A stretch of DNA of 64,000 bases. Origin: Actinomycetes bacterium (lineage in GTDB: Bacteria > Actinomycetota > Acidimicrobiia > Acidimicrobiales > Acidimicrobilacustridaceae). Below are positions 4,940 to 42,737 of this stretch, in pieces; position 1 is the first letter of the stretch, and each line of letters begins with the position of its first letter. The notes beneath the pieces were generated by a model that was not told the DNA's origin, did no database searches, and saw only the letters and a program-made list of their open reading frames with translations. The DNA is taken from assembly GCA_029782145.1 (NCBI GenBank), contig JAKOVH010000030.1, positions 186,001 through 250,000 of the forward strand. Direction: 5' to 3'. The position numbers were made by a program, and so were the translations under genes.

Positions 4940-4982
4940 GTCGTCCCCCCGGTGGTCGTGCAACCTGACGAAACTAGCAAAA

Positions 4983-5000
4983 GGTATAGATCTTTACCGG
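4983..5000. promoter_or_regulatory. Variant copy (site 10) of the ATCTAGAT operator
   Basis: GGTATAGATCTTTACC is a degenerate relative of the palindromes found at nine other promoters here. On the minus strand it reads GGTAAAGATCTATACC and is followed 8 bases later by TAGTTT, a plausible -10 box for the SnoaL-like gene. Confidence 0.5.
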
Positions 5001-10508: not shown

Positions 10509-10626
10509 GTCCGCTGCCCTCCGGACGTCGGCCCCCCGTGGAGCAGCGACGCTGTCGTGATGGTAAAGCGCCGCTTTCCTCACGGCAACGGTCGAGGGCC
10601 GATTCGGGACCAAGGTCCCATCGATC

Positions 10627-10641
10627 CATCTAGACCTTTCG
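10627..10641. promoter_or_regulatory. ATCTAGAT-type operator, site 1
   Basis: CATCTAGACCTTTCG lies 39 bases upstream of the acyl-CoA ligase ATG at 10680 and about 120 bases upstream of the divergent amidohydrolase. It matches the recurring palindrome and its one-sided GAAA flank (read on the minus strand as CGAAAGGTCTAGATG). Confidence 0.7.
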
Positions 10642-17898: not shown

Positions 17899-18333
17899 CT
17901 AGTTGCTCGGGGCGCCGTCGGTGACGGGCGCGAAGGCGAAGGTGAGGATCTCGTCGCCCGCCTCGTCGGTGTAGAAGGGCACGACCTGTAGCTCGACCTC
18001 CATGCCGAAGTCGAGCTTGGCCGGGTCGCTCTCGGTGAGGCGGGCCTCGACCCGCACCACGTCGTCGAGCTGCACGAGGCCGACGCCGAAGGGCTCGAAG
18101 CGCTCGCCGGTGGCGTCACCGGCGTAGGGGACGATGGGCGGGAAGCCCTGCGTCGTGAACGACACGAGCGTGCCCCGGCGGGGCAGCAGCAGCTCGGTCA
18201 TGGTGGCGGTGCCGCAGCGGGGACAGCGCTCCTCGGCCGGGAAGGTGGTGGCCCCGCAGTCGTCGCACCGGCTGCCGATCAGCTGCGGTGCCTCCGACGG
18301 CCAGGTGAAGACGTCGGCGATCGCCTTCTGCAT
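17899..18333 (-). CDS. DUF35 OB-fold / zinc-ribbon protein
   Basis: This 144-residue protein has a four-cysteine zinc ribbon (C23, C26, C37, C40 in CDDCG and CPRCG), then an OB-fold region (LVSFTTQGFPPIVPYAG, FGVGLVQLDD, EVELQVVPF). DUF35 proteins bind acyl-CoA and partner with thiolase-fold enzymes or MaoC domains. It is the first gene of a two-gene unit with the thiolase-like gene. An ATCTAGAC operator lies 37-53 bases upstream of the ATG, and GGAGGGAGGAG gives a strong ribosome-binding site. Confidence 0.92.
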   Translation of the reverse strand: MQKAIADVFTWPSEAPQLIGSRCDDCGATTFPAEERCPRCGTATMTELLLPRRGTLVSFTTQGFPPIVPYAGDATGERFEPFGVGLVQLDDVVRVEARLTESDPAKLDFGMEVELQVVPFYTDEAGDEILTFAFAPVTDGAPSN

Positions 18334-18369: not shown

Positions 18370-18386
18370 GGAAACATCTAGACGTT
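18370..18386. promoter_or_regulatory. ATCTAGAT-type operator, site 2
   Basis: GGAAACATCTAGACGTT lies just upstream of the DUF35/thiolase unit and partly in the short gap after the Rieske gene. On the minus strand TAACGT, a possible -10 box, overlaps it. Confidence 0.7.
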
Positions 18387-18389
18387 ATC

Positions 18390-19379: not shown

Positions 19380-19404
19380 GGCGTGCCCTCCCTGCCCTTC
19401 GATT

Positions 19405-19419
19405 CATCTACATCTTTCC
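19405..19419. promoter_or_regulatory. ATCTAGAT-type operator, site 3 (variant)
   Basis: CATCTACATCTTTCC lies 26 bases upstream of the Rieske gene ATG. It differs from the consensus by one core base (ATCTACAT) and keeps the GGAAAG flank on the minus strand. Confidence 0.6.
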
Positions 19420-20753: not shown

Positions 20754-20770
20754 GGAAAGAGATCTAGATG
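20754..20770. promoter_or_regulatory. ATCTAGAT-type operator, site 4, in a divergent promoter
   Basis: GGAAAGAGATCTAGATG contains the exact 8-base core, with two extra bases between core and GGAAA. It lies 23 bases from the amidohydrolase start and 51 from the oxidoreductase start, so one bound dimer could control both. Confidence 0.75.
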
Positions 20771-20820
20771 ATTCTACCGGAGCGGTGTCCGCACCGCCGG
20801 AGGAGAAGGGGGCCGAAGCG

Positions 20821-23069: not shown

Positions 23070-24347
23070 TCAGTCCTGGCCGAAGGCCTCGTAGGGCAGG
23101 ATCGGCTTGCCCTGTGCGTCGAGGGTGACCTTCAGGGCGCCCTTGGTGCACACCGCCGGGGTCTGCGGGGCTGCCTGGCCGTTGCACTGGAACGTGAGGC
23201 CGGCGCCGGTGACAAGCGGCGTCGGCTGCATGCCGTGGATCGTGGTGCGCACCGTGGCGGGGGTGATGTCGCCGCTGATGCCGGCGAGCGCCTGGATCGC
23301 CGAGTAGGTGGTGATGAACGTGGTCAGGCCCTCGCTGGTGTCACCGAAGGTCGGCGCGTACTTCTCGACGATGGCGTTCCACAGCTGGATGCCGCTGTTC
23401 GACTCGTCGCCGATCGGCGTGGGCGACGCCATGATGTAGCCGTCGATGTTGCTGGCCACGGCCTCCTTGACGGCATCGGTGTTGCACTGGTTCAGCCCCG
23501 TGATCGGGCCGTCGAAGCTGTTCGTCTTCAGCCCGTTGATGGCGGCGATGCACAGGCCCGGGTCGCCGATGATGTGCAGCACCGTCGGCCCGCCGGTCAC
23601 CACGTCGTTGACCTGCTGGCTGATGTCGGGCGAGCCGAGGGGGATCTTCACGGTCTTCAGCTCGATGCCGGCGTCCTCGAACTGGGTCTTGCCGAACCCG
23701 TCGTAGAAGGTGGTGGCGGCGGGCACGTCGACCACGAAGACGGTGACCTTGTCGATCCCCTTCTCCTTGGCCACGTCGATGGGCAGGGCGCTCAGGCCGG
23801 CGGTGAGGCTGGCGATCATGAACGAGCTGTCGGCGTCCTCGGTGATGGCCGGGTCGGTGACGCCGTAGACGAACAGCGGGATCTTGTTGGCCGCCGTCAC
23901 GGTGTGCACGGCGCTCGGCTGCTGGTTCTCCGGCATGACCACCATGACCACGCCGGCCTGCACCATCTGGTTGCCGCACTCGGTGGCCTTGCCGGGGTCG
24001 CCCTGCGTCTCGCAGGTGACGAGCTCGATGGGCCGTCCGCCGATGCCGCCCTTGTACTCGTTGAGGTACTTCACCGTGGCCTGGGCGGCGGGCGCGTGCA
24101 TGGTGTTGTCGAGGGTGGGGGTGCGGCCGTCGCTGACGAAGCCGACCTTCACCGGCTCACCTGTGGCCGGGTTCGGAGTGCCGAGCACGTCGCCACCGCC
24201 GGTGCCGGTCGGCGTGGTGCCCGACGGCGATCCGGAGTCGTCGTCGGAGCCGCAGGCCGTGACGAGCAGCAGCGCGGCGGCGATGATCGCTGCCGCGAGC
24301 CGCCCGCGGCGGCGGGTGGTCCTCGATCCGGACGGGCCTCGTTGCAT
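23070..24347 (-). CDS. ABC transporter substrate-binding lipoprotein (LivK-like)
   Basis: This 425-residue protein begins with a basic region (TTRRRGR), a hydrophobic segment and a lipobox VTAC (lipid-modified Cys 32), followed by a Gly/Ser/Thr-rich linker. The rest is a periplasmic-binding fold of the Leu/Ile/Val type (PVKVGFVSDG, GGIGGRPIELVTCE, MVQAGVVMVVMPENQ, DGYIMASPTPIG). It would capture a substrate outside the membrane for the divergent permease/ATPase genes. ATG at 24347 is chosen because GGGGGG lies 5-10 bases upstream; an ATG 12 bases earlier is possible. The Liv name reflects family, not proven substrate; in catabolic clusters such systems often import aromatic or lipid-derived acids. 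Confidence 0.93.
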   Translation of the reverse strand: MQRGPSGSRTTRRRGRLAAAIIAAALLLVTACGSDDDSGSPSGTTPTGTGGGDVLGTPNPATGEPVKVGFVSDGRTPTLDNTMHAPAAQATVKYLNEYKGGIGGRPIELVTCETQGDPGKATECGNQMVQAGVVMVVMPENQQPSAVHTVTAANKIPLFVYGVTDPAITEDADSSFMIASLTAGLSALPIDVAKEKGIDKVTVFVVDVPAATTFYDGFGKTQFEDAGIELKTVKIPLGSPDISQQVNDVVTGGPTVLHIIGDPGLCIAAINGLKTNSFDGPITGLNQCNTDAVKEAVASNIDGYIMASPTPIGDESNSGIQLWNAIVEKYAPTFGDTSEGLTTFITTYSAIQALAGISGDITPATVRTTIHGMQPTPLVTGAGLTFQCNGQAAPQTPAVCTKGALKVTLDAQGKPILPYEAFGQD

Positions 24348-24419
24348 GTGTCCCCCCATGGGTCGTGGCGGCGTGCGTCGGGCCGTCCGTACGGCCCGCA
24401 CCGCACTCGGCATGCTATA

Positions 24420-24434
24420 CCTCTACATGTTTGC
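24420..24434. promoter_or_regulatory. ATCTAGAT-type operator, site 5 (variant), in ABC divergent promoter
   Basis: CCTCTACATGTTTGC is a degenerate copy between the substrate-binding gene (start 73 bases away) and the permease fusion (65 bases away). TATACC or TAGCAT nearby could be -10 boxes on the two strands. Confidence 0.5.
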
Positions 24435-24498: not shown

Positions 24499-27288
24499 TT
24501 GGACCACGTCGGATCGCTCCTGCTGGGGCTCGGCAACGGCGCCGTGTTCGCCGCCCTGGCGCTGGCCTTGGTGCTCACCTACCGCAGCTCGGGGGTCATC
24601 AACTTCGCCACCGGCGCCATCGCCATGTTCTCGGCGTACACCTATGCGTCGCTGCGCAAGGGCGAGATGCTGCTGTTCCTCCCCGGCCTGCCCAAGTCCG
24701 TCGACATCGGCGGGAAGATGGGCTTCGTCCCGGCCGCGGCCATCGCGCTGGTGGTCACCGCCCTGCTCGGCGCCCTGCTCTACGCGGTGGTGTTCCGCCC
24801 GCTGCGCAACGCCCCGCCGCTGGCGCGCGCCGTGGCCTCGCTCGGCGTCATGATCGTGATCCAGAGCCTGGTGGCGATCTCCGTCGGCACCGCCCCGGTG
24901 GCGGTGAAGGCCATCTTCCCGGCCCGCCGCTGGGAGCTCGGCTCGCTGGTGGTGCTCTCCGACCGCTTCTACCTGGCGCTCACCATCGTGGCCGTCACCG
25001 TGGTGCTGTCCCTGGTCTTCCGCTTCACCCGCTTCGGACTCGCCACCCGCGCCACGGCCGAGTCGCAGACCGGCGCCTACGTGAGCGGGGTGTCGCCCGA
25101 CCGGGTCGCCCTGCTCAACTGGATGATCAGCGCGGCGGTGGCCGGCCTGGCCGGCATCCTCATCGCCCCGATCAGCCCGCTCACGCCCATCACCTACACC
25201 CTGTTCGTCATCCCGGCGCTGGCCGCTGCGCTGGTGGGCAGCTTCCAGTACCTGGTGCCCACCGTGCTCGCCGGCCTCGCCATCGGCATGCTGCAGGCCG
25301 AGGCGGTGAAGCTGGCGTCGACCTACTCGTGGATGCCCCGCAGCGGCGCCTCCGAGCTGGTGCCGCTGATGGTCATCCTGGTGGTCCTCACCGTGACCGG
25401 CCAGGCCATGCCGGCCCGGGGCGGGCTGGTGCGCACCCCACTCGGGCGGGCGCCCCGGCCCCGCTCCATCGCCTTCCCGGCGCTCGTCGGCCTGGCCGTC
25501 GGCGTGCTCGCCCTGCTGGTCACCTCCGGCGTGTGGCGCAACGCGGTGATCGGCACGTTCATCGCCGCCATCATCGGCCTGTCGTTCGTGGTGGTCACCG
25601 GGTACGCCGGGCAGGTGTCGCTCGCCCAGCTCGCCCTCGCGGGGGCAGGGGCCTACACCCTGAGCTTCCTCACCGTCAGCTGGGGCATCCCGTTCCCGAT
25701 CGCGCCGATCCTGGCCGCCCTGTTCGCCACGGTGATCGGCGTGGTGGTCGGCCTGCCCGCGCTGCGGTTGCGGGGCCTCACCCTCGGCGTCGTGACGTTG
25801 GCGTTCGCCTACGCCATCGAGGCGGTGTGGTTCCGCAACACCCAGATCGTCGACGCCAAGGGCGCGTCGGTGGAGCCGCCCACCCTGTTCGGGCTCGACC
25901 TCGGCCCGGGCCTCGGCAAGGCGTTCCCCCGGGTGAGCTTCGGCCTGGTCTGCCTGGTCACTCTCGTGCTCGTCGGCTCCGGCGTGGCCCTGCTGCGGCG
26001 CAGCTCGCTGGGCTCGGCCATGCTCGCCGTGCGGGCCAACGAGCGCTCGGCGGCCGGGCTCGGCGTCGACGTCACCCGGGTGAAGGTCCTCAGCTTCGCC
26101 ATCGCCTCGTTCATCGCCGGCCTCGGCGGGTGCCTGCTCGCCTACAGCCGGGGCACCGTCACCTTCGAGTCGTTCCTGGCGGTGGCGGGGCTCACCCTGC
26201 TCTCCACCGCGTACCTCGCCGGCGTCACCTCGGTGTGGGGTGGCGTCCTCGCCGGCATCCTCGCCGCCGGCGGCATCGTGTTCTTCGCCTTCGACAAGTG
26301 GGTCGACCTCGGCGACTGGTTCACCGTGCTCACCGGCGTCGGCGTCATCATCACCCTCATCACCAATCCCGAGGGCCTCGCCGCCGGCGGGCACGCGCTG
26401 GCCGCCCGCCTGCCGCTGCCGCTGTTCCGGCGGGAGCGACCCGCCGAGCCCGAAGCCGCCGCTGTCACCCCGCCGCCCACCACCGCCGCGGCGTCCAGCG
26501 GGGGCGTGGCGCTCGAGGTGCGCGAGCTGTCGGTGCGCTACGGCGGCGTGGTGGCGGTCGACCGGGTGTCGCTCGACGTGCGCCCCGGGACCGTGGTCGG
26601 GCTCATCGGTCCCAACGGCGCCGGCAAGACCAGCGTGATCGACGCCATCACCGGCTTCGCTCGCAGCGACGGCGTCGTGTCCATCAGTGGCGACGGCCTC
26701 GGGAGCATGGCGCCGCACCGGCGGGTGAAGCGGGGCCTGGTGCGCACCTTCCAGGCCCTCGAGCTCTACGACGACCTCAGCGTGGAGGAGAACGTGAGCG
26801 TCGCCGCCTTCGCCGCCACCCTCACCGAGCGGGCCGACACGGTCGCCCGGGCCCTCGACCTGGTCGGCATCGCCGAGCTGCGCGACCGGCCGGCCGGTGA
26901 CCTCAGCCAGGGCCAGCGCCAGCTGGTCTCCATCGCCCGGGCCATGGCGGCCCAGCCCTCCGTGCTCCTGCTCGACGAGCCCGCCGCCGGGCTCGACTCC
27001 ACCGAGAGCCAGTGGCTGGGGGAGCGCATCCGGGCCATCGCCGACACCGGCACGGGCGTGCTGCTCGTCGACCACGACGTGGCCCTCGTGCTGGGCCTGT
27101 GCGATCACCTGTACGTGCTCGACTTCGGCCGGCTCATCGCCGAGGGCGACCCGGCCGCCATCCGCGCCGACCGGGCGGTGGCCGAGGCCTATCTCGGCAC
27201 CGTGCGCGACGACGATGGAGGGGCGCCCGTCGCCGAGCCGGCGATGGGCAGCAACCCCGGCCTCGTCGGCACGGAGGTGCAGGAGTGA
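24499..27288 (+). CDS. Fused ABC importer: LivH permease + LivM permease + LivG ATPase
   Basis: This 929-residue polypeptide joins three subunits normally made separately. Residues about 1-300 form a LivH-type permease, about 320-640 a LivM-type permease (VVVTGYAGQVSLAQLALAGA is the LivM signature), and about 669-929 a LivG-type ATPase with Walker A GPNGAGKTS (about 704), ABC signature LSQGQRQ (about 802) and Walker B VLLLDEP. The linker before the ATPase is Pro/Ala-rich. TTG at 24499 is chosen because the first membrane segment starts at once and GGAGGGGGA precedes it. It overlaps livF by four bases. The nucleotide-binding half still needs LivF as partner. Confidence 0.93.
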   Translation: MDHVGSLLLGLGNGAVFAALALALVLTYRSSGVINFATGAIAMFSAYTYASLRKGEMLLFLPGLPKSVDIGGKMGFVPAAAIALVVTALLGALLYAVVFRPLRNAPPLARAVASLGVMIVIQSLVAISVGTAPVAVKAIFPARRWELGSLVVLSDRFYLALTIVAVTVVLSLVFRFTRFGLATRATAESQTGAYVSGVSPDRVALLNWMISAAVAGLAGILIAPISPLTPITYTLFVIPALAAALVGSFQYLVPTVLAGLAIGMLQAEAVKLASTYSWMPRSGASELVPLMVILVVLTVTGQAMPARGGLVRTPLGRAPRPRSIAFPALVGLAVGVLALLVTSGVWRNAVIGTFIAAIIGLSFVVVTGYAGQVSLAQLALAGAGAYTLSFLTVSWGIPFPIAPILAALFATVIGVVVGLPALRLRGLTLGVVTLAFAYAIEAVWFRNTQIVDAKGASVEPPTLFGLDLGPGLGKAFPRVSFGLVCLVTLVLVGSGVALLRRSSLGSAMLAVRANERSAAGLGVDVTRVKVLSFAIASFIAGLGGCLLAYSRGTVTFESFLAVAGLTLLSTAYLAGVTSVWGGVLAGILAAGGIVFFAFDKWVDLGDWFTVLTGVGVIITLITNPEGLAAGGHALAARLPLPLFRRERPAEPEAAAVTPPPTTAAASSGGVALEVRELSVRYGGVVAVDRVSLDVRPGTVVGLIGPNGAGKTSVIDAITGFARSDGVVSISGDGLGSMAPHRRVKRGLVRTFQALELYDDLSVEENVSVAAFAATLTERADTVARALDLVGIAELRDRPAGDLSQGQRQLVSIARAMAAQPSVLLLDEPAAGLDSTESQWLGERIRAIADTGTGVLLVDHDVALVLGLCDHLYVLDFGRLIAEGDPAAIRADRAVAEAYLGTVRDDDGGAPVAEPAMGSNPGLVGTEVQE

Positions 27289-30135: not shown

Positions 30136-31182
30136 TCAGAGGCGGACGACGCCGCGGGGGAGGGGGAGCGGTGCGTTGGTGTAGGTGACGATGCCGGGCG
30201 GGGCGGCCACCACGGTGGGGATGGCGTGGATGGCGGGCATGGCGGTGGCGATCATGCCGAGCACCATGAACTCGCCGAAGGTCGAGGCCTGGAAGTCCGG
30301 CGGCGGCAGCAGGTCGACCTTGGCCTTGATGGTGGGCCGGCCGGCGATCTCGACGTGGTAGCCGGGCTCGATCTCGAGGAACGGCTCCAGCGCCAGGGTC
30401 TTGCGCCAGCGGATGCGCAGCTCCACGATCGAGCGCCCGGCGACCTTGCCGTGCCAGCTGGCGGCGATGCCGGCCACGCACCCCTCGCCGATCTCCCACG
30501 AGCCGAGGTCGACGTGCTCGGTGGCGGCGAAGTACTCGGCCTCGCACACGACCTCGTCGAACTCGACACCCAGGGCGTCGCCGATGAGGTGCACCACGTC
30601 CTGGAACACCGCCGTGCCTCTGGCGGTCATCTGCGGCAGCTCGGGGTCGTCGATCGGGCGGGCGAAGCCCACCGGCAGCTCGGTGTCGGGGGAGTCGTAG
30701 CCGGCGATGTCGGCCGCCTCGGTGACGGTGATCTTGTCGACGCGGTCGCTGGCGCCGGCCAGCACGATGGCCAGCAGGTCGGCGAAGCCGGGGTTGATGC
30801 CCGAGCCGAACACCGAGGCGCCGCCCCGCTCGCACGCATCGAGGATGCGCTGGCGCCCCTCGCCCAGGGAGTGCCCGGTGATGAACGCCGCCGTGCTCAC
30901 GATGTTCACGCTCGCCTCGAGGATCCGCACCATCTCGTCGACGTCGATCCACATCGGGTTGTAGATCACGCAGTCGGGGCGCAGGGCGAGCAGCTCGTCG
31001 ACGTCGTTGGTGACCGTGACGCCGACGGGTGCCAGGCCGCAGAGCTCGCCCACGTCCTTGCCCGGCTTCGAAGGGGACCAGGCGTAGCAGCCCACCAGCT
31101 CCAGGTCGGGATGGGCCACGACGGCCTCCACCGACTGCTTCCCCACGTTGCCCGTCGTCCACTGCACGACCCGGTAGGCCAT
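30136..31182 (-). CDS. DapB-like NAD(P)-dependent dehydrogenase (diaminopentanoate dehydrogenase type)
   Basis: This 348-residue protein starts with a Rossmann motif in MAYRVVQWTTGNVGKQSVEA and continues with dihydrodipicolinate-reductase-like sequence (HPDLELVGCYAWSPSKPGKD, ELLALRPDCVIYNP, SGINPGFADLLAIVLAG). Relatives include 2,4-diaminopentanoate dehydrogenase, but most actinobacterial members lack a known substrate. A divergent paralogue starts at 31388, and the two share an intergenic region with a palindrome and a CTCTAGAG operator. GGGAGGGAGGAC precedes the ATG. A long hairpin follows the gene. Confidence 0.85.
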   Translation of the reverse strand: MAYRVVQWTTGNVGKQSVEAVVAHPDLELVGCYAWSPSKPGKDVGELCGLAPVGVTVTNDVDELLALRPDCVIYNPMWIDVDEMVRILEASVNIVSTAAFITGHSLGEGRQRILDACERGGASVFGSGINPGFADLLAIVLAGASDRVDKITVTEAADIAGYDSPDTELPVGFARPIDDPELPQMTARGTAVFQDVVHLIGDALGVEFDEVVCEAEYFAATEHVDLGSWEIGEGCVAGIAASWHGKVAGRSIVELRIRWRKTLALEPFLEIEPGYHVEIAGRPTIKAKVDLLPPPDFQASTFGEFMVLGMIATAMPAIHAIPTVVAAPPGIVTYTNAPLPLPRGVVRL

Positions 31183-31279: not shown

Positions 31280-31290
31280 GTGGTCCAAAG

Positions 31291-31305
31291 CCTCTAGAGG
31301 TTTCG
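31291..31305. promoter_or_regulatory. ATCTAGAT-type operator, site 6 (CTCTAGAG variant)
   Basis: CCTCTAGAGGTTTCG has a 10-bp perfect palindrome CCTCTAGAGG and the GAAA flank on the minus strand. It is 83 bases from the forward DapB-like gene and 109 from the reverse one. Confidence 0.6.
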
Positions 31306-31387: not shown

Positions 31388-32464
31388 ATGCTCAGAGTCG
31401 TGCAGTGGGCGACCGGCCCGGTCGGGCGCCACGCCATGGCGGCGGTGATCGACCGCCCCGACCTCGAGCTGGTCGGGGTGCGGGTGTACAGCGACGCCAA
31501 GGCCGGGAAGGACGCAGGCGAGCTGCTCGGCGTCGACCCGATCGGGGTGGTCGCCACCGCGGAGCGCGACGACATCCTCGACCTGGCCGCCGACTGCGTG
31601 CTCTACATGGCCCAGGGCGACGCCGACCCCGGGCCGGCCATCGACGACATCTGCGCCCTGCTGACCTCGGGCAAGAACGTGGTGTCCACCGCGGTCACGC
31701 CGCTCATCGACCCACGGACGATGGGTCCCGGCGTGGTGCAGCGCCTCGAGAACGCCTGCGCCGAGGGCGGCGCCACGTTCCACGCCACCGGCATCGAGCC
31801 GGGGTGGGCGTCGAACGTGCTGCCCCTCGCCATGTCGGGCATCTTCCGCTACGTCGAGTCGCTCACCGTGCAGGAGCTGCTCGACTACGCCACCTACGAC
31901 AACGCCTTCATGCTGTTCGACGTCATGGGGTTCGGACGGGTCCCCGACGACACCTCGGTGCTCGGTGCCGACCCGGCGATCCTGGCCGGTGTGTTCCGGG
32001 CGTCGCCGATGATGCTGGCCGACGCCATGGGCGGGACCATCGAGGAGTTCACCTACGACCGGCAGGTGTGGTTGGCCGACGAAGGGTTCGAGGTGGCCGC
32101 CGGCCGCATCGAGGTCGGCACGGTGGCGGCGCTGCGCTTCTCGGCCACCGGGGTGGTCGACGGCCGTCCGGCGCTCACCGTCGAGCACGTCACCCGTCTG
32201 CGCCCCGACGACGCGCCCGAGTGGCCCCGCGGCCGGGGATGGAAGGTCACCGTGGAGGGTCTTCCGTCGATGGTGCTCGAGTCGAGGATCGCCGTGAACG
32301 GCGAGGACGAGAACGACCAGGGCTGCCTCGGCACCGCCATGGTGGCGGTCAACGCCATCGAGGCGGTGTGCGCCGCCGAGCCCGGCATCCGCACCTACCT
32401 CGACTTGCCGCCGATCGTGGGCCGCGGGGTGCTGCGACGCCCCTCCACCCTCGTCCGCTCCTGA
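31388..32464 (+). CDS. DapB-like NAD(P)-dependent dehydrogenase (paralogue)
   Basis: This 358-residue protein mirrors the one at 30136-31182: MLRVVQWATGPVGRHAMAAV at the N-terminus, then DRPDLELVGVRVYSDAKAGKD and GIEPGWASNVLPLAMSG. It is a Rossmann-fold oxidoreductase of the diaminopentanoate-dehydrogenase-like group. ATG at 31388 is preferred to an ATG at 31334 because GGGGGAGTGGGG is immediately upstream and the Rossmann strand starts there. It probably stands alone, followed by the histone-like gene after 132 bases. Confidence 0.85.
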   Translation: MLRVVQWATGPVGRHAMAAVIDRPDLELVGVRVYSDAKAGKDAGELLGVDPIGVVATAERDDILDLAADCVLYMAQGDADPGPAIDDICALLTSGKNVVSTAVTPLIDPRTMGPGVVQRLENACAEGGATFHATGIEPGWASNVLPLAMSGIFRYVESLTVQELLDYATYDNAFMLFDVMGFGRVPDDTSVLGADPAILAGVFRASPMMLADAMGGTIEEFTYDRQVWLADEGFEVAAGRIEVGTVAALRFSATGVVDGRPALTVEHVTRLRPDDAPEWPRGRGWKVTVEGLPSMVLESRIAVNGEDENDQGCLGTAMVAVNAIEAVCAAEPGIRTYLDLPPIVGRGVLRRPSTLVRS

Positions 32465-34267: not shown

Positions 34268-35161
34268 CTACGGCTCGGGGACCTCGAAGTGCTCGTCGCG
34301 GAGCCGGAAGGCTTCCTTGGTGCCGTGCTGCGCCCGGGTCTTGACGAAGTTGAACTCGCCCTCGTCGAACTGGAGGTTGGTGCCGTAGGCGTGGACGAGG
34401 TAGCTCACGACCTCCTCGCCCTGGTAGGCCTGCAGCTGCTCGACGAGGCGGAAGGCCTCCTTGGCCATCACGATGCCGTCGGCCGGCATGCGCGAGACCT
34501 TCTCGGCCCACCACGACGCCCGCGTGGCGACGTCGGCGTCGTCGACGACCTCGGTGAACACGCCGGCCTGCTCGAGCTCGGCGGCCCGCACGATGTCGCC
34601 GGTGAGCAGCAGGCGCCGAGCGAGCACAGGGCCGAGGCGGTGGAAGAACATGTGCAGCGACCCCAGTGCGGGGCCGAGGAGGCGGGTGCCGGGCATGCCG
34701 ACCCTGGTGTCGCGCCCGACCACGGCGATGTCGGCCATGAGGGCGAGCTCGAAGCCGCCGCCGAGGGCGTAGCCCTGCACCTCGGCCACGGTGGCCTTCG
34801 GGTAGCCGAGGAAGTCGTGGTAGAAGGTGAACGTCCGCCGGTCGACCGAGAGCCGCCGGCGCTGGCTCGGCCGGCGCCGCTTGGCCGGGCTCTCACCCTC
34901 GCCGTCGCCGGAGCCGCCCTCGTACCAGGCGTAGGCGTTGCCCATGTCGGCGCCGGTGGAGAACACACCGCCCTCGCCCCGCAGGTGCACGACCTTGATG
35001 GCGTCGTCGACCGCGAGCTCGTCGAGGTACTCCTGGAACTGCCGGCGCATCGGCGGGTCGTAGGTGTTGCGCCGCTCCGGGTTGTTGATCGTGATGCGGG
35101 CGATGCCCTTGGCCTCGTCACGATCGAGCAGCACTCGAGGGTCGGTCACAGGATGCCTCAT
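34268..35161 (-). CDS. Enoyl-CoA hydratase/isomerase family protein
   Basis: This 297-residue crotonase has the oxyanion hole VQGYALGGGFELALMADI with the first glutamate kept (E of FELAL), and PGTRLLG in place of the second. A basic insert (KRRRPSQRRRLS) sits near residue 93-104, unusual for the family. The C-terminal domain is present, ending HEHF-like EVPEP. An exact ATCTAGAT operator lies 34 bases upstream of the ATG, with a -10-like TAAAGT between. The other crotonase gene follows after 115 bases. Confidence 0.9.
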   Translation of the reverse strand: MRHPVTDPRVLLDRDEAKGIARITINNPERRNTYDPPMRRQFQEYLDELAVDDAIKVVHLRGEGGVFSTGADMGNAYAWYEGGSGDGEGESPAKRRRPSQRRRLSVDRRTFTFYHDFLGYPKATVAEVQGYALGGGFELALMADIAVVGRDTRVGMPGTRLLGPALGSLHMFFHRLGPVLARRLLLTGDIVRAAELEQAGVFTEVVDDADVATRASWWAEKVSRMPADGIVMAKEAFRLVEQLQAYQGEEVVSYLVHAYGTNLQFDEGEFNFVKTRAQHGTKEAFRLRDEHFEVPEP

Positions 35162-35182: not shown

Positions 35183-35188
35183 ACTTTA
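35183..35188 (-). promoter_or_regulatory. Candidate -10 box for the crotonase gene
   Basis: On the minus strand TAAAGT is 16 bases downstream of GGAAAC (35205-35210), with the ATCTAGAT core filling the spacer. The ligase promoter at 37939-37966 has the same geometry. Confidence 0.5.
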
Positions 35189-35194
35189 CCGTTT

Positions 35195-35210
35195 ACATCT
35201 AGATGTTTCC
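35195..35210. promoter_or_regulatory. ATCTAGAT-type operator, site 7 (best palindrome)
   Basis: ACATCTAGATGTTTCC has a 12-bp perfect palindrome ACATCTAGATGT. It lies 34 bases upstream of the crotonase ATG at 35161 and sits between a possible -35 (GGAAAC) and a possible -10 (TAAAGT), where a bound repressor would block polymerase. Confidence 0.8.
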
Positions 35211-35260
35211 ACCGGCGGCGAGCCTGCGGACCAGGCCCGACGCACGATGAGGCCCCGCAA

Positions 35261-35303
35261 GCTGGTTCCGATCGTTCCGGTTCCCGGAACGATCGGAACC
35301 AGC
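35261..35303. terminator. Family B palindrome, copy 2, after the GntR gene
   Basis: Arms GCTGGTTCCGATCGTTCCGG and their exact complement (20 bp) enclose a 3-base loop. It starts 32 bases after the GntR stop, on the transcript's downstream side. It shares GGTTCCGATCGTTCCGGTT with the copy at 31229. Confidence 0.8.
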
Positions 35304-35334
35304 TCGGGTCGGGCGGGCAGGGAGTGGGCCGGTG

Positions 35335-36096
35335 TCAATCGTGGTGGAGCAGGTCGACGACCGTCGAGGAGTCCTGGCCGAGCATCACCCGGCCCACCAC
35401 CGCCATGTGGGAGCGCCAGAAGTCCTCGGCCGCGGCGCCGTCGCCACCCTCGAGCAGCTCGAGCAGCCGGCGCTGCGAGCGGATGCCGCGCCGGCGGGTG
35501 GCGAGCGACTGGTCGGGAGACTCCGAGCGGCTGACGGCGGCGACGGCGCGGGCCACGATCTCGTTGAGCATCTCGGCCACGATGGTGAGGGTCTGGTTGC
35601 CGCCCAGGGCGACGAGGCGCTCGTGGAACTCGGCGTTGGCCCGACCGAAGGAGTCGGGGTCGTCGACGCACGCCTCCTGGGCGTCGATCAGGCCGCGCAG
35701 CTCGGTGACCATGGCCTTGCGTCGGCGGCTGGTGGCGATGGCCTTGGCCGCCAGCGGCTCGAGCTGCGAGCGGGCCTCGAACACGTCGGCCAGCGACACG
35801 TTGCGGGCCTGCAGCACGATGGCGGCGCTGCGGGCGGTCATGCGCTCGTCGGGCTCGCGCACGACAACCCCGCCGTGCACGCCGCGCACGACGGTGATGA
35901 GGCCCTCGGCCTCGAGGATGCGCAGCGCCTCGCGCAGCGACGGGCGCGACACGCCGAAGCGCTCGACCAGCTCCGGCTCGTGGCCGAGCGACTCCCCCTC
36001 GGAGAGCTCTCCGGAGATGATCGCCGAACGCAGCTCGTCGGCGATGAGCTGGGGCTTCTCCTTGGTGCGTGACCCGCTGCGCTTCTCTGCGACCAC
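35335..36096 (-). CDS. FadR/FCD-type GntR transcriptional regulator
   Basis: This 253-residue protein has an N-terminal winged helix (about residues 15-80: VERFGVSRPSLREALRILEAEGLI is the recognition helix and wing region) and a C-terminal FCD ligand-binding domain with metal-type histidines (NAEFHERLVAL, SHMAVV). Such proteins respond to acyl-CoA or small acids. GTG at 36096 is used. It is probably monocistronic and ends at a 20-bp hairpin. It is one of two local regulators that might read the ATCTAGAT operator, though GntR sites usually look like TGGTnnnACCA, which does not resemble it. Confidence 0.92.
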   Translation of the reverse strand: MVAEKRSGSRTKEKPQLIADELRSAIISGELSEGESLGHEPELVERFGVSRPSLREALRILEAEGLITVVRGVHGGVVVREPDERMTARSAAIVLQARNVSLADVFEARSQLEPLAAKAIATSRRRKAMVTELRGLIDAQEACVDDPDSFGRANAEFHERLVALGGNQTLTIVAEMLNEIVARAVAAVSRSESPDQSLATRRRGIRSQRRLLELLEGGDGAAAEDFWRSHMAVVGRVMLGQDSSTVVDLLHHD

Positions 36097-36191
36097 CCGC
36101 CACCTTCTTCCAGTGTCGGGCCGTCGTCGGCCCGGAGGCCGAGACTAGCGGTCGGCCCCTCTCGCTCCCGGTGTCCGCCGGGCCGGTCCGC

Positions 36192-37901
36192 TCACCAGAG
36201 CGTGACCATCCCGGGCTCGCTGCGCAGCGAGCCGCGGATGGCCTTCTTGTCGATCTTGCCGGTGGCCGTCTCGGGTAGCTCCCCCACCACCACGAGCGCC
36301 TCGGGGGCCTTGAAGGCGGCCAGGCGCTCCAGCGCGAACCGGCGCAGGCCGGGGAGGTCGACCTCCATGCCCTGTCGGAGGACGACGACGGCGCACACCC
36401 GCTCGCCCATCTCCTCCTCGGGCACGCCGACCACGCTGACCGAGGCGACCGCCGGGTGCTCGAACAGCACCGCCTCCACCTCGGCGCAGTAGACGTTCTC
36501 GCCGCCGCGGATCACCACGTCCTTCAGGCGGTCGACGACCCGTAGGAAGCCCTCGTCGTCGAGGTAGCCCAGGTCGCCGCTGTGGAACCAGCCGTCGACG
36601 AACGCCGCGGCGGTGGCGACCGGGTCGTTCCAGTAGCCCTTGCACACCTGGGGCGAGCGCACGCAGATCTCGCCGACCTCGCCGGTGCCGAGCACGCTGC
36701 CGTCGGGGCCCACCACCTCGATGTCGGCGGTGAGGTTGGCCCGGCCCACGCTGTCGGGGTGGGCCAGGAACTCGGCGCCCACGTTGGTGGCGATGGCCGA
36801 GGTGGTCTCGGTGAGGCCGTAGCCGTTGAGCAGCTGGATGCGCTCGCCGAACTCCTCCACCGCCCGCAGCGGCAGGTCCGGTGGCACCGCGGCGCCGCCC
36901 ATGGGGAAGCCCTGGATGGGAAGGTCGAGGGCGCCGGCGCCGGACCGGTCGAGCACCTGGCGCACGATGGTGGGCACGCCGCCGAACTGGGTGATCTGCT
37001 CGGTCTGGGCCAGCCGCAGCGACTCCTCGAGCTCCCACTTGTGCATGACCACGAGCTTCACCCCGCCCATGGGAGCACTGAAGATCGCCGTCATCCCGCC
37101 GATGTGGAACAGGGGACCGACCGACAGCGATGCCGGCTGCCGCGGCGGTGCGGGCGGGCGCTGGCTGATGAGGGCTTCGCGGAGGTTGGCGAAGGCCATG
37201 TTCCAGATGTTGGCGGTCATGCCCCGGTTGGTGAGCAGGGCGCCCTTGGGGCGGCCGGTGGTGCCCGAGGTGTAGAGCATGGCGATCACGTCGTCGCGCC
37301 CGGGCCGCACCACGGCGTCGTCGGCGAGGGGCGAGCCGGTGACCAGCTCCTCGAACGGCACGTCGCCGTCGGCGCCGCGCACGCCGACCACGGTGAGCCC
37401 GTCGGGTCGGGGCTGGTCGGCCAGCTGGTCGATGCGCTCGCCGTCGAGCACCGCCACCTTCGCCGCCGCGTCGTCGAGGGCGTAGGCCAGCTCGGGCCCG
37501 ACCCACCAGGAGTTCATGGGGGTGGCGATGGCCCCGCACAGCGCCGCGGCCCACACCACGACCGGGTACTCGGGCAGGTTGCGCATGCACAGGGCCACCC
37601 GGTCGCCGCGCTGCACGCCGAAGGTGCCCTGCAGCTCGCCCGCCAGGCTCAGCGCCCGGCCGCGGACCTCGGCGAAGGTGTGGCGCTCGTCCTGGTAGAC
37701 GACGTGCACCAGCTCGGCGTGGTTGGGGCCCATGTCGAAGATGTCGAGCACGGTCCGAGGGGAGCGCACGAAGTCGCGCAGGGCGATGCCGTCGACCTCG
37801 ACCGGCTCGACCTCGAACATGCCGCCCTCGCCGATCAGCGGCGCCAGGCGCGTGTCGTCGCGGTAGACCGCGGCGATCTCGGTCGCGTCCTCGATGGTCA
37901 T
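36192..37901 (-). CDS. AMP-forming acyl-CoA ligase (FadD-like)
   Basis: This 569-residue ANL enzyme activates a carboxylic acid to a CoA ester. Motifs are YTSGTTGRPKGALL, GYGLTETTSA, GWFHSGDLGYLDDEG, DRLKDVVIRGGENVYC and the catalytic-lysine motif LPETATGKIDKKAIRG. ATG at 37901 follows GAGGGGACA, a fair ribosome-binding site. An exact ATCTAGAT operator is 50 bases upstream with a TACGAT -10 box. It appears monocistronic, with the FadR-type gene next on the same strand. Confidence 0.94.
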   Translation of the reverse strand: MTIEDATEIAAVYRDDTRLAPLIGEGGMFEVEPVEVDGIALRDFVRSPRTVLDIFDMGPNHAELVHVVYQDERHTFAEVRGRALSLAGELQGTFGVQRGDRVALCMRNLPEYPVVVWAAALCGAIATPMNSWWVGPELAYALDDAAAKVAVLDGERIDQLADQPRPDGLTVVGVRGADGDVPFEELVTGSPLADDAVVRPGRDDVIAMLYTSGTTGRPKGALLTNRGMTANIWNMAFANLREALISQRPPAPPRQPASLSVGPLFHIGGMTAIFSAPMGGVKLVVMHKWELEESLRLAQTEQITQFGGVPTIVRQVLDRSGAGALDLPIQGFPMGGAAVPPDLPLRAVEEFGERIQLLNGYGLTETTSAIATNVGAEFLAHPDSVGRANLTADIEVVGPDGSVLGTGEVGEICVRSPQVCKGYWNDPVATAAAFVDGWFHSGDLGYLDDEGFLRVVDRLKDVVIRGGENVYCAEVEAVLFEHPAVASVSVVGVPEEEMGERVCAVVVLRQGMEVDLPGLRRFALERLAAFKAPEALVVVGELPETATGKIDKKAIRGSLRSEPGMVTLW

Positions 37902-37938
37902 CGGTCGTGTCCCCTCACACGTCACGGTCGACCGTGGG

Positions 37939-37944
37939 ATCGTA
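37939..37944 (-). promoter_or_regulatory. Candidate -10 box (TACGAT) for the acyl-CoA ligase
   Basis: TACGAT on the minus strand matches the actinobacterial -10 consensus TAnnnT and lies 16 bases after GGAAAG (37961-37966). The operator core fills the spacer. The start codon is 38 bases downstream. Confidence 0.6.
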
Positions 37945-37950
37945 CCCGAG

Positions 37951-37966
37951 AGATCTAGATCTTTCC
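37951..37966. promoter_or_regulatory. ATCTAGAT-type operator, site 8
   Basis: AGATCTAGATCTTTCC contains a 12-bp perfect palindrome AGATCTAGATCT. It is 50 bases upstream of the acyl-CoA ligase ATG and overlaps the predicted promoter spacer. Confidence 0.8.
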
Positions 37967-38024
37967 GGCCCCGGCGCGCGAGCGGAGCCACCGACGGTGT
38001 GAGGTGGGCCAGGCCGGGTGGAGC

Positions 38025-38835: not shown

Positions 38836-40020
38836 TCAGCGGGCGGTGCCCAGCAGGTCGAGGGCGTTGTCGCGCATGATGCGGCGCACCTCACCGGCGT
38901 CGAAGGCGTGGAGCTCCTTGGTGAAGTCGGTCGGCTCGGCCAGGCCCTCGCCGTGGGGCCAGTCGGAGCCGAACAGGATGCGTTCGACGCCGATCAGCTC
39001 GGCCAGGGCCCGGATGTCCTCCTCGTAGTACGGCGTGACCCACACGCACCGGCGGATGGTGTCGAGCGGGTCCTCCTCGAACGACCACGGCGTCTGGTTG
39101 GCCTGCTTCTTCAGCCGCTTCACCAGCAGCGCCACCCAGTCCGAGCCGTTCTCGATGCTGGCGACCCGCAGCTCGGGGAACCGGTGGAAGACGCCGTCGA
39201 CCAGCATCGAGGCCATGGTGTCGTGGATGGCCCGGTCGGACACCAGGATCTTGCTGAGGATGTTGGTCCGGCCGTAGGCCATGAACTCCGCGGTGCCGCC
39301 CCACATGGCGCTGAAGGCGTTGTAGCCGCTGTCGCCCAGGTGGAACGCCACCGGGGTGCCGGTCTCGACCAGGCGGGCCCAGAACGGGTCGTGGGCCGGG
39401 TGGCCGAACGAGCGCGAGGTGCCGTGCTCGCCGGGCACCGGTGCCGGGCGCAGGTGCACGATGCGGGCGCCCATCGCCAGCACCCGGTCGAGCTCGGCCA
39501 CGGCCGCCTCGGGGTCGGCCAGCGACAGCATCGGCGCGCTCACGATGCGGCCGTCGGGCCGGGCGAAGCCCCAGTCCTCGTCGAGCCAGGAGTTGAAGGC
39601 GCTGAGGGTGGCCATGGTGGCGCCGACGTCGTGCTTGAGGGCCTCCTCCACGCCGCAGCCCATGGTGGGGAACATCCACGCCGAGCCGAGGTGCTGGCGC
39701 TCCACCACCTCCACGCGGGCGGCCCGGTCCTGGTACTCGGCCCGCAGCGGCTCGACCTGCATGAGCGACCGGGGGTCGACGCCGTCGGGCACCTGGCCGC
39801 GGAACATCAGGTCGATGCACCCGGGGACGATGATGGGGTCGAAGGTGGGGTTCGGAATGAACCGGTTGATGCGGCCGCCCATCAGCATGTAGGAGCGCTT
39901 GCCCTTGGTGAGCACCTGCACGCCGCGCTCGGCAAGAGCGGGGTCGAGGTGCCGGGTGAAGGCGTCGAGCGGCTCGTAGTAGTGGTTGTCGGCGTCGATC
40001 GGCTCGTAGTCCAGGTCCAT
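38836..40020 (-). CDS. ACMSD-like amidohydrolase family protein (paralogue 3)
   Basis: This 394-residue TIM-barrel protein is near-collinear with those at 9321 and 19520: DADNHYYEPLDAFTRHLDPA, FIPNPTFDPIIVPGC, RGQVPDGVDPRSLMQVEPL, FHLGDSGYNAFSAMWGG, SIENGSDWVALLVKRLKKQA and FGSDWPHGEGLAEPTDF. It is expected to be a metal-dependent hydrolase or decarboxylase. It is co-translated with the thioesterase gene (one base apart), so its product or substrate may be a CoA ester. It diverges from the cupin operon, with no ATCTAGAT operator in that gap. Confidence 0.9.
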   Translation of the reverse strand: MDLDYEPIDADNHYYEPLDAFTRHLDPALAERGVQVLTKGKRSYMLMGGRINRFIPNPTFDPIIVPGCIDLMFRGQVPDGVDPRSLMQVEPLRAEYQDRAARVEVVERQHLGSAWMFPTMGCGVEEALKHDVGATMATLSAFNSWLDEDWGFARPDGRIVSAPMLSLADPEAAVAELDRVLAMGARIVHLRPAPVPGEHGTSRSFGHPAHDPFWARLVETGTPVAFHLGDSGYNAFSAMWGGTAEFMAYGRTNILSKILVSDRAIHDTMASMLVDGVFHRFPELRVASIENGSDWVALLVKRLKKQANQTPWSFEEDPLDTIRRCVWVTPYYEEDIRALAELIGVERILFGSDWPHGEGLAEPTDFTKELHAFDAGEVRRIMRDNALDLLGTAR

Positions 40021-40175: not shown

Positions 40176-40682
40176 ATGAGTGACGGCAACGGAAAGCGGG
40201 GCATGCGCATCTTCCGCAAGGACGACGCGCCGCTGCTCCTCGAGACCGGCATGATGTCGATGCCGACCATGGAGCCCGACGCCAGCGAGCAGCTGGTCGA
40301 GTGGGCCACCAACGGCGGCCAGGTGGTGAAGGTGCTCTTCGGCGACCCGGAGGGCAGCGGCATGAGCCTGGTGTGGTCGTGGTTCGGCCCCGCCTTCACC
40401 CTGCCCCGCCATTCCCACAGCGGCGACTGCCTCTACTTCGTGCACCGGGGCGAGGTGCACATGGGCAACACCGTGCTCGGCGCCGGCGACGGGTTCTTCC
40501 TGCCCGCCGACGCTCCCTACGCCTACTCCGCCGGGCCCGAGGGCGTGGAGGTGCTCGAGTTCCGCGGCGTGTGCTCGTTCGACATGCAGATCACCGAGAG
40601 CCTGGCCCGGTGGGACCACATCGTCGAGGTGTCCCGCGCCAACGCCGAGCGCTGGGCCAGCGAGCAGGAGGCGCACGCATGA
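40176..40682 (+). CDS. Cupin-domain protein
   Basis: This 168-residue protein has one cupin barrel: LPRHSHSGDCLYFVHRGEVHMG supplies metal ligands H79, H81 and H90 (the usual E is replaced by a Cys/Asp stretch). Cupins bind Fe, Mn or Ni and act as dioxygenases, isomerases or binding proteins. It leads a three-gene unit with an amidohydrolase and a TetR regulator, overlapping the next gene by four bases. Function in this operon is unknown. Confidence 0.85.
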   Translation: MSDGNGKRGMRIFRKDDAPLLLETGMMSMPTMEPDASEQLVEWATNGGQVVKVLFGDPEGSGMSLVWSWFGPAFTLPRHSHSGDCLYFVHRGEVHMGNTVLGAGDGFFLPADAPYAYSAGPEGVEVLEFRGVCSFDMQITESLARWDHIVEVSRANAERWASEQEAHA

Positions 40683-41881
40683 GCCAGCTCGACTTCCCCG
40701 TCTTCGACGCCGACAACCACCTCTACGAGACCGAGGACGCCTTCACCCGCCATCTGCCGGAGTCGCACAAGAGCCTCTTCCGGTTCGTCGAGCTCAACGG
40801 GCGCAAGAAGATCGTCGTCCGCAACGTCATCACGGAGTACATCCCCAACCCCACCTTCGAGGTGGTGGCCAAGCCCGGCGCCCACATGGCGTTCTACGCG
40901 AGCGACAACCCCGAGGGGAAGACGCTGCGCGAGCTCACCGGCGAGCCCATGCGCTCCATCCCGGCCTTCCGCAACCCGGCCGACCGCCTGGCGCTGCTCG
41001 ACGAGCAGGGCGTGCACGCCTGCCTCATGTTCCCCACCCTGGCCAGCCTCATCGAGGAGCGGCTGAAGGACGACCCGGCCGCCACCGTCGTGGCCATCCG
41101 CGCCTTCAACGAGTGGCTCCACGACGACTGGACCTACGACTACCAGGGGCGCGTCTTCGCCACGCCGATCGTCAACCCCTGCATCGTGGAGGAGGGCATC
41201 GCCGAGCTCGAGCGGGTGCTCGAGCGGGGCGCCCGGGCCGTCCTGGTGCGGCCCGCCCCGGTGGCCGGGCTGCGCGGCTCGCGCTCGCCGTTCCTGCCCG
41301 AGTTCGACCCGTTCTGGGCCCGGGTGGAGGAGGCCGGTGTGCTGGTGGCCCTGCACGCCTCCGACACCGGCTACCAGGACTACCTCAACACCTGGGAGGG
41401 CTCGAGCCAGGAGTTCGTGGCGTTCAAGCCCAAGACCTTCCCCTATGTCGCCGACGGAGGCCGCTCCATCCAGGACACGCTGGCCTCGGCCATCTGCCAC
41501 GGCATGCTCGACCGCTTCCCGGGCGTGAAGCTCATGAGCGTCGAGAACGGCGGCCACTGGGTGCACGTGCTGGCCCACAACCTCGAGCAGACGTGGAAGA
41601 AGATGCCCAAGGAGTTCCCCACCCACCCCCTCGAGGTGCTGCGCCGCAACGTGTGGATCAACCCGTTCTGGGAGGAGTCGATCTCCGGGCTGGTCGAGCT
41701 GATGGGCCCCGACCGGGTGTGCTTCGGGTCCGACTACCCGCACCCGGAGGGCCTGGCCGAGCCGCTGCAGTTCGCCGACATGGCCGCCGACCTGACGCCC
41801 GACGTGCTGCGCAAGGTCATGTCGTCCAACCTCGCCGGCCTGCTCGGGGTGAGCGGCTCGGTGGGCGCGGCGGCACCATGA
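40679..41881 (+). CDS. ACMSD-like amidohydrolase family protein (paralogue 4, divergent)
   Basis: This 400-residue protein has the same core plan as paralogues 1-3 but differs widely: FDADNHLYETEDAFTRHLPE, EYIPNPTFEVVAKPG, MFPTLASLIEERL, ALHASDTGYQDY and FGSDYPHPEGLAEP. It is a metal-dependent TIM-barrel hydrolase/decarboxylase. It overlaps the cupin stop and the TetR start (both ATGA), so the trio is co-translated. The TetR gene in the same operon may regulate it. Confidence 0.9.
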   Translation: MSQLDFPVFDADNHLYETEDAFTRHLPESHKSLFRFVELNGRKKIVVRNVITEYIPNPTFEVVAKPGAHMAFYASDNPEGKTLRELTGEPMRSIPAFRNPADRLALLDEQGVHACLMFPTLASLIEERLKDDPAATVVAIRAFNEWLHDDWTYDYQGRVFATPIVNPCIVEEGIAELERVLERGARAVLVRPAPVAGLRGSRSPFLPEFDPFWARVEEAGVLVALHASDTGYQDYLNTWEGSSQEFVAFKPKTFPYVADGGRSIQDTLASAICHGMLDRFPGVKLMSVENGGHWVHVLAHNLEQTWKKMPKEFPTHPLEVLRRNVWINPFWEESISGLVELMGPDRVCFGSDYPHPEGLAEPLQFADMAADLTPDVLRKVMSSNLAGLLGVSGSVGAAAP

Positions 41882-42654
41882 GCTCGGCCGCCGGCACGGC
41901 GGGGCCGGCCGACGGCGCCGACTGGCAGCGGCGCGTCGTGGGCCGCTCGCTCACCGACGCCCGCCGCCGCTCGATCGACCGCGGTGAGCGCTTCGTGCGG
42001 GCGGCGGCCAAGGTGCTCGAGCGGACCAACGGCGAGTCGCTCACCGTGCAGCAGGTGGCCGACGAGGCCGGCCAGTCCCTGCGCACGCTCTACCAGTACT
42101 TCGAGAGCAAGGACGACCTCCTCCTCGCCGTGTACGAGGAGGCCATGGGCACCTACGCCCGCATCGTGCGGGCCGCCATCGAGCCCCTCGACGACCCCGT
42201 CGAGCGGCTGGCCGGCTCGCTGGTGGCCTCGGCCCGCCTGCCGGGCATGCACCAGAAGTCCGGCGTCGACCGGGGGCTGTCCCGGCTGCGCCTCCAGCTG
42301 GGCCAGGCCGACCCCGGGCTCATCGCCCGCTCGCAGGAGCCCATCACGGCCGTGTTCCGCGAGCTGGTGACCGCCGCCGCCGAGGCGGGCGGTTCCGGGG
42401 TGATGGACGCCGAGCCGGGCACCTACTTCGTGCTCGCGCTGCGCACCTCGTTCAGCCTGTCGTCCACCCTCGGCACCGAGTTCAGCGTCGAGCTGCCCGG
42501 TCCCGTCGAGCTGGCGCAGTTCTGCCTGGGTGGCCTCGGCATCGACCGGCCTCGCTCCTGGTACGACGACGTCGACGCTCGCCTCGACCTGTCGGGCGAC
42601 GATGGCCGCTCGATCCTGCGGCGCCTGGCCCGCGGCGCCAAGGCCGGCCGTTGA
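41878..42654 (+). CDS. TetR/AcrR family transcriptional regulator
   Basis: This 258-residue protein has the TetR helix-turn-helix at about residues 56-80 (LTVQQVADEAGQSLRTLYQYF followed by ESKDDLLLAV), then a helical ligand-binding domain. An N-terminal extension of about 30 residues precedes the HTH helix. It overlaps the amidohydrolase stop by four bases. Being just upstream of an exact ATCTAGAT operator (42721) and the nine-gene operon, it is a candidate for the regulator of that operator family; this is inferred only from position and TetR habits. Confidence 0.93.
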   Translation: MSSAAGTAGPADGADWQRRVVGRSLTDARRRSIDRGERFVRAAAKVLERTNGESLTVQQVADEAGQSLRTLYQYFESKDDLLLAVYEEAMGTYARIVRAAIEPLDDPVERLAGSLVASARLPGMHQKSGVDRGLSRLRLQLGQADPGLIARSQEPITAVFRELVTAAAEAGGSGVMDAEPGTYFVLALRTSFSLSSTLGTEFSVELPGPVELAQFCLGGLGIDRPRSWYDDVDARLDLSGDDGRSILRRLARGAKAGR

Positions 42655-42720
42655 CGCGGACGGTGCGGCGAGGGCACGGGCCCGGTGGAACGGTCCGCCG
42701 ACCACGCCGTAGGCTCCATT

Positions 42721-42737
42721 ACATCTAGATGTTTCGG
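42721..42737. promoter_or_regulatory. ATCTAGAT-type operator, site 9
   Basis: ACATCTAGATGTTTCGG contains the same 12-bp palindrome as site 7. It lies 30 bases upstream of the first gene of the nine-gene operon and downstream of the TetR gene. Confidence 0.8.

Follow-up and report, generated by a model that had tools for sequence, protein, structure and literature searches.

The stretch analysed here, referred to as the window, is 64,000 nucleotides (nt) from an Actinomycetes bacterium of the family Acidimicrobilacustridaceae (assembly GCA_029782145.1, contig JAKOVH010000030.1); it corresponds to C2:186001-250000, where C2 denotes the contig, and the host genome is 4.24 Mb. Within it, the gene for a GntR-type regulator with an FCD domain is located between the promoters of a crotonase-fold enoyl-coenzyme A (CoA) hydratase and an acyl-CoA ligase, and both promoters carry the same palindromic element. 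The analysis shows directly that sites of this element cluster, lie mostly in intergenic DNA, recur in relatives and keep a fixed spacing to TANNNT hexamers; the element is probably the operator through which the GntR protein (35335-36096) represses a catabolic regulon of about a dozen promoters over 60 kb. The genes and features at the two promoters, by window position, are:

34268..35161, minus strand: crotonase-fold enoyl-CoA hydratase (Pfam ECH_1 1.6e-34)
35183..35188, minus strand: predicted -10 box TAAAGT of the crotonase promoter, +20 from the operator start
35193..35208, minus strand: candidate operator 16-mer of the crotonase promoter, AAACATCTAGATGTAA; position weight matrix (PWM) score 30.8, held-out 30.1, best non-site 7.3
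35206..35211, minus strand: predicted -35 box TGGAAA of the crotonase promoter, located 17 nt from the -10 box and overlapping the arm of the operator
35335..36096, minus strand: FCD-type GntR regulator, candidate reader of the operator (Pfam GntR 4e-16, FCD 5e-18)
36192..37901, minus strand: acyl-CoA ligase (Pfam AMP-binding 2e-73), on the same strand as gntR and 95 nt ahead of it
37939..37944, minus strand: predicted -10 box TACGAT of the ligase promoter, +20 from the operator start
37949..37964, minus strand: candidate operator 16-mer of the acyl-CoA ligase(-gntR) promoter, AAAGATCTAGATCTCT; PWM 27.9, held-out 26.4
37962..37967, minus strand: predicted -35 box CGGAAA of the ligase promoter, overlapping the operator arm

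The shared core and the operator set

On the minus strand the crotonase promoter (35210..35183) reads GGAAAC-ATCTAGATGTAAACGG-TAAAGT and the ligase promoter (37966..37939) reads GGAAAG-ATCTAGATCTCTCGGG-TACGAT; a sequence-only reading of this locus had described GGAAAS, 16 bases and TAAAGT or TACGAT with ATCTAGAT in the spacer at both promoters, and is confirmed to the letter. Matches to GGAAAN{16,19}TANNNT in the window are just these two promoters (0.09 expected), while GGAAASN{16}TANNNT has three matches in the whole genome including both promoters and one for the reversed control; these counts are post hoc, as the pattern was taken from the two sites themselves. Stronger support is given by the core ATCTAGAT, which is present in four copies in the window against 0.06 expected, and in five genome-wide, all within C2:168932-228730 (60 kb), with none for the reversed control. 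The crotonase start is ATG 35161 in the sequence-only reading or GTG 35134 in a gene call based on coding bias; the ligase and gntR genes possibly share a transcript. Positions 35258-35306, in the gap that separates the gntR end from the crotonase promoter, form a 23-bp stem with a 3-base loop (-47.6 kcal/mol, z -8.75), which has no T run after it and may insulate the crotonase promoter from the ligase-gntR transcript.

A symmetric 16-bp PWM was built from seven near matches and applied to 124 kb of the contig; its consensus is about WWAS-ATCTAGAT-STWW. The model finds 13 sites at 22-31 bits, with 7.0 for the next-best place and a shuffle maximum of 13.1; when left out of the model in turn, each of the 13 still scores 18.6-30.1 and any other place at most 7.8. 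The sites span C2:168928 to C2:228734, ten of them inside the window, and the site centre is intergenic in 12 of 13, where intergenic DNA makes up about 5% of the stretch by our own gene calls. The one exception overlaps the 3' end of a tetR gene, directly ahead of the next gene. Across the whole genome an extended pattern with up to three mismatches has 28 matches, 15 of them in the cluster region, and the 13 outside it are near the level of the reversed control (16). The elements at the two promoters belong to a set of about thirteen likely repressor-binding sites in one catabolic cluster. Further candidate operators in the window are:

4980..4995, minus strand: before a SnoaL-like gene (4502-4963); PWM 26.8, TAGTTT at +19
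10624..10639, unstranded: between a divergent amidohydrolase (9321-10508) and CoA ligase (10680-12251); PWM 23.3
18372..18387, minus strand: before a ChsH2-like OB-fold protein (17899-18333); PWM 28.6, GGAAA arm facing downstream
19402..19417, minus strand: before a KshA-like Rieske oxygenase (18390-19379); PWM 26.5
20758..20773, unstranded: between a divergent amidohydrolase (19520-20731, minus) and molybdopterin oxidoreductase (20821-22929, plus); PWM 26.8
24417..24432, unstranded: between a divergent periplasmic-binding protein (23070-24152) and ATP-binding cassette (ABC) transporter (24499-27288); PWM 26.5
31288..31303, unstranded: between divergent DAP_DH_C-domain genes (30136-31182 and 31388-32464); PWM 22.3, held-out 18.6
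42719..42734, plus strand: before an acyl-CoA dehydrogenase (42767); PWM 30.8, GAAA arm facing downstream

The neighbours of the sites encode crotonases, CoA ligases, acyl-CoA dehydrogenases, the KshA-like Rieske oxygenase and the ChsH2-like OB protein, together with amidohydrolases, short-chain dehydrogenases/reductases and a branched-chain-type ABC transporter. By these domain assignments the cluster looks like one of acyl-CoA catabolism, perhaps steroid- or terpenoid-like; none of the NCBIfam models listed for its proteins reached its curated cut-off. Five amidohydrolase (PF04909) genes are present (9321-10508, 19520-20731, 38836-40020, 40679-41881 and 51833-52663), three of which have homologues at 55% identity or more in four or more related regions. 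In two places (window 42719 and C2:180955) a tetR gene has an operator immediately after it and an acyl-CoA dehydrogenase gene next in line.

Promoter architecture around the operator

The surroundings of the operator were analysed in 155 site-gene pairs (97 sites) from the host and related loci, using sites above 13 bits that were not well inside a gene, lay within 400 nt of a start and had full flanks; 141 remained once 14 pairs whose flanks matched those of another pair at 60% identity or more had been taken out. Two loci, L071 and L080, agree in length and sites with G156 C127 and G110 C223, respectively, and are apparently the same contigs; the pair analyses exclude them, but they are still counted in the hit totals for related regions given below. 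In the 141 pairs TANNNT is found 13 times at +20 and eight times at +30 from the operator start, against a background of 0.30 per position; with one base of tolerance on each side the counts are 22 and 13, and in 1000 flank shuffles TANNNT never exceeded five at any offset. The two registers are one helical turn (10 bp) apart. As TANNNT piles up at these fixed distances in the host and related loci, the -10 boxes proposed in the sequence-only reading hold up and are probably real at both promoters. A third, smaller group has TANNNT just upstream of the operator (9 of 155 pairs). Related loci show one more TANNNT peak at +15 (10 of the 141 pairs), frequently as TAGCAT, which overlaps the end of the operator.

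In the +20 register T occupies position -3 in 16 of 22 pairs against 22 of the 106 in neither register (p 5e-6), and G occupies -2 in 14 of 22 against 18 of 106; among the hexamers located 17 nt ahead of the -10, TTGAAA and TGGAAA are the most frequent (three of 22 each), and the mean match to TTGACA is 3.0 of 6. In the +30 register the hexamer, TAGACA or a similar sequence, is part of the operator's second half, and C is found at position 11 in 6 of 13 pairs against 12 of 106 (p 0.005). The host genome contributes three of its 19 site-gene pairs to the +20 register, at 35193, 37949 and 4980. PMC6448022 reports TANNNT as the SigA -10 preferred in Mycobacterium smegmatis. The hallmark of a SigA-type promoter, a fixed TANNNT with a TTGACA-like hexamer 17 nt upstream, is present here as a property of the group, and the arrangement is likely that of a housekeeping promoter with the operator over its -35 box and spacer.

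Recurrence in relatives and the candidate regulator

Two sets of related regions were searched with the host-genome model. The first is 442 kb, in which three regions (G430 C379, G429 C7 and G428 C234) were fetched for their motif matches and the extents of some others were also set by motif matches; the second is 262 kb chosen by GntR alone, and control loci amount to 111 kb. Above 13 bits there are 78 non-overlapping matches in the 442 kb, 75 of them intergenic (shuffles 1.3), and 46 in the 317 kb left without the three motif-picked regions (shuffles 0.5); the GntR-picked regions have 19, all intergenic (shuffles 1.5), and the 111 kb of control loci none. At 9 bits the counts are 87, 52 and 25 for the 442, 317 and 262 kb, respectively, with shuffles at 6.0, 4.5 and 4.3.

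The sites recur before homologues of the same genes. Crotonase orthologues have a site upstream in five of six related loci, homologues of 31388 in four of four, those of the gene at window position -14382 in five of six rows, and those of the periplasmic-binding protein in four of four; the ABC transporter has sites in one of two rows and the ligase in one of three, two of which are the same contig. Homologues of the acyl-CoA dehydrogenase 42767 have a site in G429 (19.5) and also in G147 (25.1), and none in G431 among the rows listed. The sole homologue found of the ChsH2-like protein (G147) has a site scoring 23.4; no homologue of the KshA-like oxygenase is listed for the related regions. 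Homologues of 38836 and 45371, which have no site in the host genome, have sites in three of eight and two of nine related rows.

Among 36 relatives in the host's own family, three have a motif match at up to one mismatch (one each) while eight have a control match, and none of the 36 has a GntR match above 40% identity; because of this scarcity the system looks patchily distributed. Class-wide, the pattern alone matches in 80 of 395 genomes, a weak signal, as many of these are small genomes in which the reversed control is as frequent. GntR is found at E<=1e-50 in seven of the 395, four of which have pattern matches (the host six, G140 three, G147 two and G156 two) and three of which do not (G327, G067 and G110); the control has none in all seven.

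The GntR protein has an N-terminal GntR winged helix (PF00392, 58.9 bits against a cut-off of 27) and a C-terminal FCD helical domain (PF07729, 66.1 bits against 24.3). Its relatives, at 61-77% identity overall in the compared genomes, include 11 loci at 62-77% from Acidimicrobiia, other actinobacterial metagenome-assembled genomes, Frankia, Parafrankia and Pseudofrankia, and six other members of the class at 62-73% among the 395 genomes, two of which are apparently the L071 and L080 contigs. Frankia-type genomes have two GntR copies (61-69%) per motif-bearing region; the loci are L126-L130 (G431 C80), L131-L132 (G426 C260) and L135-L137 (G427 C148). Six of 16 gntR copies have a site in the roughly 400 bp before the gene (G431 twice, G426, G428 C234, L075 and L080; scores 13.3-24.1), which hints at autoregulation; the host gntR may share the ligase transcript, whose promoter carries the site at 37949. 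The GntR protein is the best candidate for the reader of the operator, since it is the only one of five recognised regulators found in all 14 compared genomes, although these were picked by GntR and only the absence of the other regulators is unbiased. The genes flanking the window on the left and right were domain-scanned in part, and a sixth regulator could have escaped. Two of the other regulators are:

41878..42654, plus strand: TetR regulator (TetR1), rival candidate (Pfam TetR_N 1.1e-10)
C2:180324-180968: second TetR (TetR2)

Proposed repression, rival explanations and known regulators

The crotonase and ligase promoters would be of SigA type, with a TAnnnT -10; in both, the palindrome would extend over the -35 hexamer (T/C-GGAAA, a variant of TTGACA) and most of the spacer, which is 17 nt long. 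A bound GntR dimer would block RNA polymerase, and a pathway intermediate, either a CoA thioester or a carboxylate, would release it; binding and repression by GntR, and the inducer, are what we infer from these arrangements. With the operator over a housekeeping promoter, no special RNA polymerase factor would be needed.

The sequence-only reading had left open either a repressed promoter class or a dedicated sigma factor with GGAAA as its -35 element; the former is favoured, and the placement of the operator over the -35 box, the spacer or the start is compatible with it, while the latter is considered highly improbable. The -35 elements of extracytoplasmic function (ECF) sigma factors often contain GGAA, the GGAAA-16-TAnnnT arrangement is common to two co-functional promoters, and the AAA arm faces upstream in nearly all pairs of the +20 register; however, GGAAA is the outer arm of the palindrome and has no fixed direction. 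At 35193, 37949 and 19402 in the host genome the GGAAA arm faces upstream relative to the target gene; at 18372 it faces downstream, as does the CGAAA arm at 42719. GGAAA is at the upstream edge in 12 and the downstream edge in nine of the 155 pairs, and tandem settings have the A-rich arm upstream in 17 cases and downstream in eight, with eight ties. The -10 has the housekeeping TANNNT form, and the genome has one further match to the full geometry. Neither a directional GGAAA -35 nor a genome-wide promoter class, as expected for an ECF sigma factor, was found in the host genome and the 155 pairs; the dedicated GGAAA sigma factor is rejected. An activator that recruits polymerase from the same site would agree with -10 registers 10 bp apart, which keep the same face of the DNA; it is nonetheless distinctly unlikely, because an operator centred near -24.5 or -34.5 relative to the start, as deduced here, lies on the -35 and -10 boxes or between them and would block polymerase, as would the nine of 155 pairs with the -10 just upstream, in which the operator covers the start.

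The repressor could also be TetR1 or TetR2, with the GntR protein a neighbour that has another target; this is unlikely, if less so than an activator. Both tetR genes directly precede a site (42719 and window -5045), palindromes of this kind are common among TetR operators, and TetR1 has orthologues at 47-67% in five of the 14 genomes (G327, G426, G427, G429 and G430). However, in the other nine, including the site-rich G431, G428, G147 and G140, TetR1 has no match above 37% identity, and TetR2 nowhere exceeds 37% in the 14 genomes; in the largest genomes (three for TetR1 and five for TetR2) the scoring covered just 150 candidate places. The compared regions contain two TetR1 copies (the host and G429), and the 400 bp upstream of each is free of sites. 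For MarR and Rrf2 there is no match at 1e-10 in the fetched related regions, a search that was not genome-wide; TetR1, TetR2, MarR and Rrf2 are all disfavoured as readers of the operator by the absence of matches in the compared genomes or regions.

Repression by the GntR protein has points that count against it, in addition to the way the 14 genomes were picked. No TANNNT is present in any of the three registers in 103 of the 155 pairs, and the other 16 of 19 host-genome pairs are in no register, with none at +30. Ten of 16 gntR copies have no site upstream, the host gene being one of these if it is not read from the ligase promoter. Near gntR, L072 and L077 have no match above 9 bits and L076 has one, at 11.9; G067 has one match against 1.15 expected, and at 9 bits the control loci have six matches in 111 kb against 2.9 in shuffles. 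The assignment of the operator to GntR is a prediction, and by inspection the 13-site model, about WWASATCTAGATSTWW, lacks the GT/AC boxes described for the FadR subfamily in PMC4494728.

PdhR, LldR, NanR and FadR have the same GntR winged helix and FCD domain as 35335-36096, and the recognition region of PdhR and NanR resembles its SRPSLREAL. The helix-turn-helix (HTH) was aligned with those of NanR, PdhR and LldR; at the position of FadR Arg-35 the host protein has Pro. The HTH is covered by 19 orthologue rows, of which 17 likewise have Pro, while G327 has Ala and G067 Gly. When aligned with LldR, one FCD-domain His, which we take to be a metal ligand, is replaced by Gln in the host protein and in 20 of 20 orthologue rows, which may mean a different metal site and perhaps another class of ligand. 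PMC4494728 describes FadR-subfamily operators as palindromic, with one site often serving a divergent pair, as is the case here, and gives their consensus as TKGT/ACMA boxes; Arg is the most frequent residue at HTH position 28 (FadR Arg-35) and prefers G/C. In contrast, the core here is TCTAGA instead of GT...AC and the Arg35 equivalent is mostly Pro. The lack of GT/AC boxes and of Arg35 calls for caution over GntR as the reader; the two may be linked changes. A broader proposal, given roughly even weight, is that a branch of the FadR subfamily in Acidimicrobiia and Frankia relatives lost the contact from Arg35 to G and reads a TCTAGA-centred palindrome without GT/AC that carries two -35-like hexamers ten bp apart, T(T/G)GAAA in one arm and TAGACA in the other half. 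One operator would then lie over a housekeeping promoter in either helically phased register, and divergent pairs would be served on both sides.

The regulon of BioR is that of biotin. BioR is a published exception within the FadR subfamily (PMC4494728), with a TTATMKATAA operator that lacks GT/AC, as here; its operator sequence and regulon differ. In the open-licence PubMed Central literature, no paper was found linking ATCTAGAT with GntR or an operator, and nothing joining GntR, FCD, steroid, catabolism and operator, nor a title on such a system. The present set would define a regulon, with a candidate regulator and operator, in an extensive and so far uncharacterised cluster for steroid-like or acyl-CoA catabolism that has relatives in Frankia and its kin and in uncultured Acidimicrobiia, and the operator sequence could be used to find more genes of the pathway. 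It would also be a case of changed DNA specificity among GntR regulators and of an operator that doubles as a -35 box in two registers. A parallel in organisation is found in KstR and KstR2, which control steroid regulons of mycobacteria and rhodococci and are likewise repressors whose numerous sites are spread across an extensive cluster for steroid or acyl-CoA catabolism; these belong to the TetR family and have other operators, whereas the regulator conserved with the motif here is a GntR protein.

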